This document shows positions 22,373-26,261 of a DNA stretch of 62,215 bases, piece by piece (position 1 is the first letter of the stretch; each line of letters begins with the position of its first letter). A model generated the notes under the pieces. It did not search any database and was not told the origin of the DNA. It worked only from the letters and a program-made list of their open reading frames with translations. The stretch spans positions 1 through 62,215 of the forward strand of contig WGMV01000009.1 of assembly GCA_016124905.1 (NCBI GenBank), written 5' to 3'. This stretch comes from a bacterium (GTDB lineage Bacteria; Pseudomonadota; Alphaproteobacteria; Rickettsiales; RI-342). The position numbers and the translations under genes are program-made.

Positions 22373-22921
22373 ATGATGGCCATGCAATACACCATATCCC
22401 TGCCCCGGGGGCATGCGCCGGAAGCCATTCAGGAACGGGTGGAGAAGCGTCACCCCCTGTTCGTGGGCCGTGAGGGCCTCAAGCATAAATCCTATCTCTA
22501 CAATGCCAAAGAGGCCGTCTACGCCCCCTTCTACGTATGGGAGAATGACGACGAGCTGACCAACTTCCTGCTTGATGACCTCTTTCACGGCGTTGTCACC
22601 AGCTTCAGCCGCCCGCGCATCCGCAGCTGGCAGGTATTGCATACCTACGATGCCAACCGGCCGGACAAGGCCCGTTACGCGCGTCTGGAAAGCGATACCA
22701 TCCCCGCGGAAGCCGACGTGCGCAAACTGGTGGAAAAGGAATGGGCCAACCAGACCGCCCTGCGCGTGCATGAAGAGCTCGGCTTTCACATCATCGGGCT
22801 GGACCCTGATCGCTGGGAAATCATCCGTTACAGCGAATGGACGGACAAAAGCGCCGCTCCCAAACCGGAAGCCGATTGCATCCTGGAATACGATATACTA
22901 GACCTCTGGCGAAAAATCTGA
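22373..22921 (+). CDS. DUF4865-like protein
   Basis: 182 residues. Start ATGATGGCCATG leaves the exact Met uncertain. The N-terminal MQYTISLPRGHAPEAIQERV and the segment YAPFYVWENDDELTNFL followed by RPRIRSWQVL resemble what I recall of the DUF4865 family, whose function is unknown. No signal peptide or membrane segment; the last third is acidic. Lies 109 bases after thiL and 21 bases before the deformylase-like gene, so probably co-transcribed with the latter. Confidence 0.6.
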   Translation: MMAMQYTISLPRGHAPEAIQERVEKRHPLFVGREGLKHKSYLYNAKEAVYAPFYVWENDDELTNFLLDDLFHGVVTSFSRPRIRSWQVLHTYDANRPDKARYARLESDTIPAEADVRKLVEKEWANQTALRVHEELGFHIIGLDPDRWEIIRYSEWTDKSAAPKPEADCILEYDILDLWRKI

Positions 22922-22942
22922 ACCCGCAATCAAGAGGCCTTC

Positions 22943-23482
22943 ATGCCCGCACTCGATCTCGTCATCGCCCCGCACCCCGTTTACAAGGAAAAAAGCACAC
23001 CGGTGGACGGCATGACGCCGGATATCAAGATGCTGCTCGACGACATGATGGACACGCTGGAGGCATATGACGCCATTGGCGTGGCCGCGCCCATGGTCGG
23101 CATCAGCAAGCAGCTGGTGGTCATCAAGCTGGAGCAGGATGGTGAGATCCATTCACTGCAAATGGCCAACCCGCGCATCATCCATGCCAGCAAGGAAATG
23201 ACCACGCTGGACGAAGCCTCCATCACCTTCCCCGACGTGGTGACCGCCATTACGCGGCCGAGTGAAATCACCGTGGAATATCTTGGTACGGACGGTCAAA
23301 CGCATCGCCTTGATGCCAAAGGGCTTTTGGCCACCTGCATCCAGCACGAGATGGATTATCTGGACGGCAGGACACTACTGGATTACCTTAGCCCCATGAA
23401 GCGCGACATCGCCCTTCGCCGGATGAAAAAAGCATCCAAGCATCACCATCATCACGTCCACAGCGCCTTTTGCAATCACTAG
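22943..23482 (+). CDS. Peptide deformylase-like protein lacking catalytic residues
   Basis: 179 residues with the peptide deformylase fold pattern, but all three catalytic motifs are altered. Motif 1 (G-x-G-L-A-A-x-Q) reads IGVAAPMVG at 45-53, the Gln becoming Met51. Motif 2 (EGCLS) reads EASIT at 91-95, the metal Cys becoming Ser93. Motif 3 (HExDH) reads HEMDY at 135-139, the second metal His becoming Tyr139. Only H135 and E136 remain. The C-terminus is unusual: KASKHHHHHVHSAFCNH, a possible new metal site. Deformylase-like proteins without the active site are known in alphaproteobacteria; this is unlikely to deformylate Met. Binding to nascent chains or ribosomes is a guess. Confidence 0.85.
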   Translation: MPALDLVIAPHPVYKEKSTPVDGMTPDIKMLLDDMMDTLEAYDAIGVAAPMVGISKQLVVIKLEQDGEIHSLQMANPRIIHASKEMTTLDEASITFPDVVTAITRPSEITVEYLGTDGQTHRLDAKGLLATCIQHEMDYLDGRTLLDYLSPMKRDIALRRMKKASKHHHHHVHSAFCNH

Positions 23483-23651: not shown

Positions 23652-26261
23652 TTAGCCCAGTTCGGTGCCTTGATCTACCGACGGATTATAACCCGTGCCT
23701 TGATGGCTATCCAGTCCCACCGGCTGAATGCCGTAATGTTCGCAGCGGATCTGGTAGAGATTCTGGAAATCAGGATTGCTGGCCATCATCTGCTCCAGCG
23801 CCTGGCGTGCTTCTTCATCAATCTCGTTATCATTGCCATACAGCCACTGGCGTATCATCGGAATATAGGCCGGGCAAAGCTCCTGAAGCGCCGCTTCGGT
23901 CTCGGCCCAGCTTTTGCCGCCTTCCACATGGTCAAGCAGGCGGAACAGCAGCCCACCCGCAGCACCAAACGCGCCCTCATTTGAATCGAGCTGATGATTC
24001 TCGTTCGTATCGAAACGGAACAGCGTGGAAAGGTCGTTGAAAGACTCCGCCGTCACCGGGTAATGCGTCTGGCTGAAAAGCTCCATCAGCTTGGAAGAGA
24101 AATCCACATTCGCCGCAGGCGGATCAATATGCTCCGGCGGTGTAGCCGTCGTCGTGGGTGTAGTCGTACGCTCCTGATCCGCTGTGGGCACTTCCGGAGC
24201 GGCAACTGCAGGATAGACATCCGGGTTGGTTGCGGTAGCCAGGTCGGGGTCCGTGGTCTGAACCTCCGTCCGCGCCACATTCACCTCGGCACGCATATTC
24301 TGGCCGTCGTGATTAAAGTCGTTGGACAAAAAGTTATTGCGGCCGGCCTCGCCGGTCAGAATATTGGAGAAAAGGTCCTGGATGAACTCAAGAAACGCAT
24401 GCGGAATTTCTTCCGCCAGGTCCTCGAACCGGCCTTTAACCTCGTCAAACCCCTCCGCCTCATTAACCAGCATCGTTTCGGGGTTATCTTCCGGCGTGGC
24501 CACCGTACCGTCCGAATGTGTCTGGTAATACACAGCCGGTGCACTGGCATAATTCGCCTGACGGTTCGTAACGCCATAGATGGCCGCACCAGCGTCATTG
24601 GCAGTGGCAAGCGCCGGATTATCCGTCGTCAGGTTGGTATTCGCACGCGCCGCGGTGGCAATTTGCTGCACCTGGGCCATTTGCTCATCGGTAAAAATGG
24701 CTTCGAGATCAGCCTGCGTGAACTGATCGAGATGCTGGCCGACAAACGGCACCATCACCTGATCCATATAGGAAGCGTAGGAAACGGCGAATTGCTCCGG
24801 CGGCAGGGCCAGAATGGCCTGCATGTCGTGACGCATCTGATCGGTCGCAAGCCCGCTATGAGGCCCATAGAGGATGTCCAGCATAACCTGAGCGCCCATG
24901 GACGCCTGCTGGTCATCGAACATCAAATTGCCGAGTATCTCATTGAAATCGTCCATCGGCACGCCGTCTTGCAGCATACGCGCGCCGGAAATCAAGCTCA
25001 TCCGCGTCAGGCTTGTCTGCGCTTCGGCACGGGTAACCCCATTGACCGATGCAAAGGCATCAACCAGGCTGCCGCCATTGGTGCGAGCCTGATCAAGGGC
25101 ATTCCAATACATGGTGAGCTGGTTGGCGGCCTCCGGTGTACCGCCCGCCTCAATCAAGTAAGACCCGATAAACTGAGTTGCCTGAAGGAAATCCCCCTTC
25201 AAATCATCGCTCAACGCCGACATCCCGACCATTTGGTATGCGCGTGAAACCAGCAAGGCCCGACGTTCCGGATCAGGCTCGGTTGCTATCGAACCGAGGA
25301 TGTTACGGAAATGCGGAGTCGGAGACCCATTGTTCCGAATGTCATCCGGATGCGCTTCCCAAAAGAAATTATCTACATCGGTTGTACCAACCCACGCATT
25401 CAAAACACCGTCATTGCGCGCATCATCCAGCGTACGCCCCTGGATGGTTGAGCCCGCTTCCCGTGCGGCATGCAAGGAAGCGCCCAAATCTTCATTGGGA
25501 TCGCCCGTGGGAGTGATGAATGCACCCCCGCTCATGATAGAGGGAATGGGTAATCCCCATTGAATAACAGGCTGCGGCGCATAAGCGTGCGTGCCGTCCG
25601 CTGTCGCAACCGGAGGCGAGGCAGCACCCGTTTCCGTACTGGGCGTTTCAGCAGCAGGAGATTCAACATTCGGAAGCGTGGCCGTTTCTTCCGGGTTTGT
25701 TGGCGTCGTCGTTACCGTTGGCGTCGTTTCAGCAGGCGGTGCTTCCGGAACTTCCGGCTCTTCCACTTCAGGGGTCGCAGGCGCATCAATCAAATGCTGG
25801 CTGATCGCCCTATCGCGCCCAAATACTCGTTCAATCGTCTGCGGAGGCACCACCGCGCGAATCAGGCTCGGCGCGTCGGTAATGGTTCCGGCATCCATAG
25901 CATCGAATATTTGGTCGAACGTAACGCCATTAAACAGGCTGGACATGTCCTCATCACTGACCACCCCGTTCTGCACGAGATAGTCCACCAGGTTCATTTC
26001 ATGGTTATCGCCAATGCCCTGGGTTTCAAAATAGATGCTGAGCGTTTCAGGGCTCATGGCAATGTTGATGCTCTGCCCACTGACCGAAATACTGGCCGAA
26101 CCATTGATGATGTCGTCAAGGCTCGTATTGTTCAGCTGGTCGGCATATTGGGGAAGCGCAGCAATAATCTGGCTGTCATCTCCCTCATAGCTGGTATTGG
26201 CGAAACGCAGATACCACGCCACCAAACCTGTCAGCTGTGCAAGTCGTTGATCATCCACCAT
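23652..26261 (-). CDS. Large unknown protein with an EF-hand-like loop
   Basis: 869 residues, no family recognised. Good ribosome site (AAGGAG) ten bases before the ATG. No signal peptide or transmembrane segment. Two Pro/Thr/Glu-rich linkers (about 155-215 and 690-725) split it into three parts. The middle is rich in Ala, Gln, Asp and helical. A canonical EF-hand loop, DTNENHQLDSNE, is at about residues 749-760 with ligands at positions 1, 3, 5, 9 and 12; a weaker one, DFNHDGQNMRAE, is near 647. Only two Cys. Very acidic. It could be exported by a signal-less route or act inside the cell; there is no evidence for either. Separated from metH by 83 bases. Confidence 0.75.
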   Translation of the reverse strand: MVDDQRLAQLTGLVAWYLRFANTSYEGDDSQIIAALPQYADQLNNTSLDDIINGSASISVSGQSINIAMSPETLSIYFETQGIGDNHEMNLVDYLVQNGVVSDEDMSSLFNGVTFDQIFDAMDAGTITDAPSLIRAVVPPQTIERVFGRDRAISQHLIDAPATPEVEEPEVPEAPPAETTPTVTTTPTNPEETATLPNVESPAAETPSTETGAASPPVATADGTHAYAPQPVIQWGLPIPSIMSGGAFITPTGDPNEDLGASLHAAREAGSTIQGRTLDDARNDGVLNAWVGTTDVDNFFWEAHPDDIRNNGSPTPHFRNILGSIATEPDPERRALLVSRAYQMVGMSALSDDLKGDFLQATQFIGSYLIEAGGTPEAANQLTMYWNALDQARTNGGSLVDAFASVNGVTRAEAQTSLTRMSLISGARMLQDGVPMDDFNEILGNLMFDDQQASMGAQVMLDILYGPHSGLATDQMRHDMQAILALPPEQFAVSYASYMDQVMVPFVGQHLDQFTQADLEAIFTDEQMAQVQQIATAARANTNLTTDNPALATANDAGAAIYGVTNRQANYASAPAVYYQTHSDGTVATPEDNPETMLVNEAEGFDEVKGRFEDLAEEIPHAFLEFIQDLFSNILTGEAGRNNFLSNDFNHDGQNMRAEVNVARTEVQTTDPDLATATNPDVYPAVAAPEVPTADQERTTTPTTTATPPEHIDPPAANVDFSSKLMELFSQTHYPVTAESFNDLSTLFRFDTNENHQLDSNEGAFGAAGGLLFRLLDHVEGGKSWAETEAALQELCPAYIPMIRQWLYGNDNEIDEEARQALEQMMASNPDFQNLYQIRCEHYGIQPVGLDSHQGTGYNPSVDQGTELG

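Follow-up and report, generated by a model that had tools for sequence, protein, structure and literature searches.

The window, by which we mean the whole 62,215-nucleotide stretch of DNA that was analysed, belongs to a genome of 2.36 Mb, which is large for Rickettsiales. On its forward strand, the ORF list and Pfam place a coding sequence for a protein of 179 amino acids at 22943-23482, preceded by a Shine-Dalgarno-like AAGAGG (22932-22937, +) that was read from the DNA 5 nt before the ATG. The protein is referred to below as the pseudo-deformylase, and its C-terminus reads KHHHHHVHSAFCNH. A gene recognised by Pfam as DUF4865 (22373-22921, +) ends 21 nt upstream of this coding sequence; it was absent beside the pseudo-deformylase orthologues at the 23 loci compared and is therefore probably not part of the pseudo-deformylase system.

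The window protein matched the peptide deformylase (PDF) family PF01327 with an E-value of 7.8e-42 (143 bits against a cut-off of 22.8) and TIGR00079 with 128.8 bits (cut-off 103.95), and it scored below cut-off for NF009484 and NF001159, two models of narrower scope. An AlphaFold2 model based on a 17-sequence alignment had the PDF fold (mean pLDDT 90.9), and its best Foldseek match was a PDF, 5j46 (E 2.1e-16, TMq 0.88), so the deformylase core looks intact, as the earlier note on this DNA had claimed. In the register of E. coli Def, each of the three active-site motifs carries a substitution. Motif I (AIGVAAPM, residues 44-51; 23072-23095, +), with its GVAAPM ending, has Met51 (codon 23093-23095) in place of the catalytic Gln, which is Gln50 in E. 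coli. Motif II (EASIT, residues 91-95; 23213-23227, +) has Ser93 in place of the metal-binding Cys (Cys90 in E. coli), where active PDFs read EGCLS. Motif III (QHEMDYLDG, residues 134-142; 23342-23368, +) reads HEMDY, with Tyr139 for the second metal His (His136 in E. coli), and thus departs from an HExxH with both metal His. The first metal His (His135), the catalytic Glu (Glu136) and Asp138 are retained. The window protein therefore lacked all three residues by which active PDFs were recognised, namely the motif I Gln, the motif II Cys and the second His of motif III. The roles of these residues in E. coli PDF are established, and a protein that lacks the Gln together with two metal ligands should be incapable of the known PDF chemistry. 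ORF translation and alignment to E. coli Def reproduced the coordinates, the length and the three substitutions that had been reported for this reading frame.

The sole other PDF match in the genome was a protein of 173 amino acids at G000:C30:11069-11530 (-), in which the motifs GIGLAAVQ, EGCLS and HELDH are all intact. A true def gene, for which a search elsewhere in the genome had been advised, is thus present, and therefore, judging by the sequence of this second copy, the cell need not rely on the window copy for deformylation. The intact motifs also rule out a sequencing error in, or decay of, the only def gene. The ORF adjoining this PDF was read by eye as methionyl-tRNA formyltransferase (fmt). 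The substitutions, the second PDF and the conserved tail described below support well the earlier description of a dead deformylase with a metal-type tail, neither of the two outcomes that the note had named as refuting it (no His tail in close relatives, no other active deformylase gene) was obtained, and the window protein is very probably a pseudo-deformylase, an old PDF paralogue in which catalysis has been lost.

The genus offered no further genome and the family one other (G001), where the sole PDF detected has the motifs EGCLS and HEIDH; the search was therefore widened to the order. PDF matches at E ≤ 0.001 were obtained in 82 of 88 Rickettsiales genomes and were wholly absent from six (G029, G034, G036, G063, G070 and G085), with 11 weaker matches (E 1.9e-20 to 3.8e-7) lying outside the sequences read. 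One of the genomes, G039, encodes a PDF that includes the 183 residues given for PDB 3u04, a structure from Ehrlichia chaffeensis, which belongs to Rickettsiales. An intact pseudo-deformylase was present in 26 of the 88 genomes, distributed over 13 of 29 families; among the 62 genomes lacking an intact copy, 56 had a canonical PDF among the sequences read; these 56 include G060, whose pseudo-deformylase gene is broken, and G050, which has a fragment of that gene. Genomes carrying the intact gene were larger, with a median of 2.0 Mb against 1.5 Mb (26 vs 62; Mann-Whitney p 0.003, relatedness ignored). The earlier note had asked whether the three substitutions are conserved in orthologues, and they are: Met was found in 26/26, Ser in 25/26 (Ala in L009) and Tyr in 26/26. 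His135 and Glu136 were likewise present in all 26, the Gly position of motif II held Ala in 22, Ser in three and Arg in one, and M51, H135, E136, D138 and Y139 were invariant in the 23 aligned members. NCBIfam models named 'peptide deformylase' matched all 23 of these aligned members. In G086, a genome rated 100% complete, the pseudo-deformylase is the only PDF found; a canonical def gene may sit in an assembly gap there.

We built a tree of 91 core sequences after removing the tail and the three diagnostic columns from the alignment and dropping two G060 fragments as too short. The tree separated a clade of 26 sequences (25 with Met/Ser/Tyr and one with Met/Ala/Tyr) from the other 65 (62 with Gln/Cys/His, two with Gln/Ser/Tyr and one with His/Ser/His), and the split received an SH-aLRT value of 99.6 and a bootstrap of 100. 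The sets of 26 and 62 used for residue comparison had been chosen by patterns that include the Met, Tyr and Cys, and fixation was counted from the clade in the 91-sequence tree instead; by this count, the substitutions are fixed in one clade. A tailless second-PDF type occurs in family f17 (L105 in G017, L125 in G037 and L115 in G053). Two of these proteins keep Gln but read EGS at motif II and HEIDYT at motif III; in the other one, Gln is replaced by His and Cys by Ser. Since this type lies outside the dead clade in the tree, it seems to have reached loss independently.

A neutral relic heading to loss is suggested by one genus, g12, which we take to be Rickettsia: G011 has an unbroken gene, a stop codon disrupts it in G060, G050 retains a fragment, and in G033 no copy was found. 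Across the order, intact genes occur in the 13 families, and 22 aligned members share 40-51% identity with the window protein. Seven close pairs gave pN of 0.15-0.24 against pS of 0.60-0.80, with dN/dS of about 0.09-0.17 in the three pairs for which dS was computable, and the close pairs tested are under purifying selection. Neutral decay is contradicted by these values for the order as a whole; it is highly improbable as an explanation and would apply at most to genus g12. According to the available part of PMC2635572, a 'peptide deformylase' orthologue group is missing from R. canadensis and the typhus-group rickettsiae; this group may be the pseudo-deformylase gene.

The same conservation can be read as the mark of an altered active enzyme, in which Ser93, His135, Glu136 and Tyr139 would form a metal-free or differently metallated site for another N-terminal group. 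Conservation of these residues (Ser93 in 25/26, the other three in 26/26) exceeds the needs of a bare scaffold, but L009 has Ala in the place of Ser93 and, from established enzymology, the simultaneous loss of the Gln and two metal ligands should end the known chemistry; we regard an altered enzyme as quite improbable. Some precedent for it exists in Trypanosoma brucei, whose type 3 PDFs with altered motifs are described as active in the available text of PMC12690207. Type 3 PDFs in general are presented there as motif-altered, weakly active or inactive proteins of S. aureus, S. pneumoniae, archaea and protists (PMC12690207). From that description alone, they resemble the pseudo-deformylase in being accessory and in having motifs I and II altered, whereas the pseudo-deformylase additionally has the His-to-Tyr change in motif III and a metal-type tail. 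The accessory Def2 of Vibrio, as far as the same text covers it, is similar in being a second PDF beside a canonical one and in commonly having Met at the position of E. coli R153, but in V. cholerae Def2 none of the three motifs is altered and the enzyme is active (PMC12690207).

The class was also searched with the orthologue alignment, and the best 29 loci were read. Outside the order, four of its 237 genomes proved to encode a tailless protein with the same core signature (L186-L189 in G254, G202, G128 and G297), and these four represent three families. None of 298 further genomes of the phylum passed E ≤ 1e-61, a cut that could drop weaker members. When the 29 class sequences were added to give a tree of 120 sequences, all 30 dead-type proteins fell into one clade, to the exclusion of every other PDF (FastTree support 0.985); the 26 members from the order formed no clade by themselves, and the four outside members fell among them. 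The four tailless relatives imply that the dead core is, as judged from these genomes, more widespread than the tail and can exist without it.

E. coli PDF docks on the ribosome by its C-terminal helix through L149, K150, R153, K157, K160 and R163, as given in the available text of PMC12690207. The counterpart in the window protein spans residues 151-167 (23393-23443, +), which AlphaFold2 modelled as a helix and in which the lysines are conserved. Among the 26 pseudo-deformylases, K150 was present in 26/26, K157 in 25/26 (one Arg), K160 in 26/26 and Lys or Arg at position 163 in 26/26, so that four of the five positions K150, R153, K157, K160 and R163 are conserved or held by Lys/Arg. The position of R153 was occupied by Arg in 3/26 and by Met in 13/26, much as in the canonical PDFs of the order. 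Compared with E. coli Def (PF01327; PDB 1bs4/2w3t), the pseudo-deformylase thus shares the fold, the length, the docking helix with K150, K157 and K160, the first metal His and the catalytic Glu, and differs in its replaced Gln, metal Cys and second metal His and in an extra H-x-H-x3-C-x-H tail.

The retained docking residues would suit an inactive competitor or regulator, a dead PDF that fills the ribosomal PDF site and thereby adjusts deformylation or the moment at which trigger factor and methionine aminopeptidase act, with the tail serving only as an accessory element for affinity or stability. The helix residues are conserved as they are in active PDFs, and the four tailless clade members from three families outside the order point to a function of the core itself. 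A competitor of this kind nevertheless leaves unexplained why the tail ligands are kept, in exact form in 23/26, while the linkers vary; we consider it possible, although rather unlikely.

The tail lies at the extreme C-terminus of the window protein (HVHSAFCNH; 23453-23479, +), where it was delimited by a DNA pattern and by the orthologue alignment, and it is disordered in the AlphaFold2 model, with residues 169-179 below a pLDDT of 50. The conserved element is H171-x-H173-x3-C177-x-H179, in which H171, C177 and H179 are invariant and H173 is conserved in at least 90% of the 23-member alignment, while the residues between them vary. An exact H-x-H-x3-C-x-H ending was found in 23/26 orthologues; among the others, L007 and L016 have H-G-H-(A/S)-C-x3-C-E-H and L096 ends in HGSDNCACC. 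Upstream of the ligands, most members have P-P where the window protein has H-H, and the KHHHHH run was ruled out as a conserved feature, since only H171, H173, C177 and H179 recur. The earlier emphasis on a histidine-rich tail therefore stands for the His/Cys ligands but not for the run of five histidines. The tail had also been called untypical of deformylases, which is true of 72 of the 80 canonical PDFs of the order, none of these having the full tail, but the remaining eight carry it (in G012, G016, G023, G026, G042, G055, G076 and G084). Partial His/Cys ends were seen on the canonical PDFs of G020 and G040. Four other canonical PDFs, those of G014, G051, G072 and G083 (L225, L226, L227 and L231), have a His-rich loop insertion before motif II and no tail.

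We searched the 88 Rickettsiales genomes with the DNA pattern H-[V/I/M]-H-x3-C-x-H followed by a stop (or Trp), using the reversed pattern as a control. The results showed 31 matches against 2 for the reversed pattern, and by reading frame the 31 comprised 23 pseudo-deformylases (one being the broken G060 copy), one canonical PDF (G012), two trigger factors (G006 and G021), one Nfu-type scaffold (G008) and four chance matches. Applied to 240 class genomes, three of them from this order, the pattern gave 10 matches, of which, by eye, only the window's own was a gene end; the other nine lay in frames of at most 109 codons, also judged by eye. Of 42 trigger factor C-termini examined in the order, four carry the tail (at the very end in G006 and G021, near the end in G004 and G086) and 38 lack the full tail. 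The trigger factors L065 (G006:C57) and L066 (G021:C4) end in HVHGPDCNH and HVHGPGCNH, and no pseudo-deformylase was found in either genome; in G004 (L131) and G086 (L140) the pseudo-deformylase is present and a similar stretch lies near the trigger factor end. The Nfu-type iron-sulfur scaffold (L067 / L052, G008:C230) ends in GHDHGHVHSDSCNH. Tailed canonical PDFs occurred in 0/24 genomes with the dead gene and 8/56 without it (p = 0.10), and canonical PDFs with any His/Cys segment in 2/24 and 12/56 (p = 0.21), the genomes in both comparisons being related and not independent; mutual exclusion of a tailed canonical PDF and the dead paralogue was accordingly set aside as a hint at most.

In the window's genome, H-x-H-x3-C-x-H gave 18 DNA matches against 4 for the reversed pattern, two of them in recognised genes and the rest judged by eye to be off-frame. 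The two in-gene matches were the pseudo-deformylase and an ABC ATPase ending in THHHDHHHAGVHVHGEDCAHD. This ATPase (L243), encoded at G000:C13 around 36999, carries the His/Cys tail and is followed by an ABC-3 family (ZnuB-like) permease gene, because of which we call it ZnuC-like. Its tail, HVHGEDCAH, lies near its end and resembles the HVHSAFCNH of the pseudo-deformylase; the cores of the two proteins are unrelated, and a motif so short could be convergent. The ABC-3 permease family also includes importers of metals other than zinc, and for this reason we go no further than to say, from the company of the ZnuC-like ATPase, that a metal bound by the tail would probably be zinc. The occurrence of the same tail on this importer ATPase and on the Nfu scaffold, neither of them ribosomal, is what would be expected of a metal store or buffer with no link to the ribosome, for which the PDF fold would be a mere soluble carrier of a zinc- or nickel-binding tail. 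Against a carrier of that sort stand the retained docking lysines and the invariance in 23 aligned members of M51, H135, E136, D138 and Y139, which are far from the tail in sequence, and we judge it improbable.

The explanation we tentatively prefer, at somewhat short of an even chance, is that the pseudo-deformylase has kept the PDF fold and the 50S-docking surface and carries a metal-binding tail, the metal probably being zinc. Its C-terminal helix would seat it at the ribosomal exit site near trigger factor, where it would compete or rotate with the true deformylase and where its tail would hold a metal ion. Rather than deformylating, it might then act as an adaptor, or as a metal store or donor that serves either newly made proteins or the true deformylase; it might also sense metal or do no more than compete for the site. 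A binding protein for nascent chains and a metal-handling protein, the two roles that the earlier note had suggested, are interpretations to which these features lend themselves. Several findings count against the preferred explanation: 3/26 orthologues have no exact tail and the four relatives outside the order have none, R153 is mostly replaced, no zinc- or ribosome-related neighbour is shared, the full tail is missing from most trigger factors (38/42) and canonical PDFs (72/80), and 62/88 genomes of the order have no intact copy.

A broader reading, which we think unlikely, is that exit factors (the pseudo-deformylase and sometimes the true deformylase or trigger factor), chiefly in larger-genome Rickettsiales, share one portable zinc-binding tail. 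Zinc would then be kept at the tunnel exit, where nascent proteins could be supplied with it or denied it, and the dead deformylase would be its dedicated carrier. If the tail does bind zinc on the ribosome, it would offer a way to learn at what place and stage of their synthesis bacterial proteins acquire metal. Annotation models label the pseudo-deformylase a deformylase although the loss of its active site is old and fixed, and PDF gene counts would consequently overstate how many active deformylases, and hence how many drug targets, Rickettsiales and some other Alphaproteobacteria possess.

A search of the open-licence literature returned, among the matches listed, no account of the pseudo-deformylase family or its tail, and a published link to the zinc regulon (Zur, zinc, peptide deformylase) was dropped as nothing relevant appeared among the matches listed there. 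In a word search of two papers on Rickettsiales evolution, deformylase, zinc, trigger factor and metal were absent from the main text. A phage origin was also rejected, since no relative could be confirmed when viral contigs were scanned with the orthologue alignment; among 160 matching phage records, the 10 listed reached at most 41.5% identity.

Gene neighbourhoods were compared at 23 loci, with flanks of at most 1.5 kb except in the window, where they measured about 2.4 and 2.5 kb. No neighbour common to these loci ties the pseudo-deformylase to zinc or the ribosome, and an operon function was rejected, there being no general neighbour. Two further neighbour clusters proved to be ORFs overlying the pseudo-deformylase gene itself, nearly all of them antisense. 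A transporter-like gene (MFS by eye) lies beside the pseudo-deformylase at four loci, all of family f2 (L010, L018, L020 and L023), and an FAD/NAD-type protein (by eye) is encoded beside it at three (L009, L021 and L024). In the window, the reverse strand at 23652-26261 encodes an 869-amino-acid protein with no Pfam match, in which D-x-N/D-x-D stretches resemble EF-hand loops by eye.
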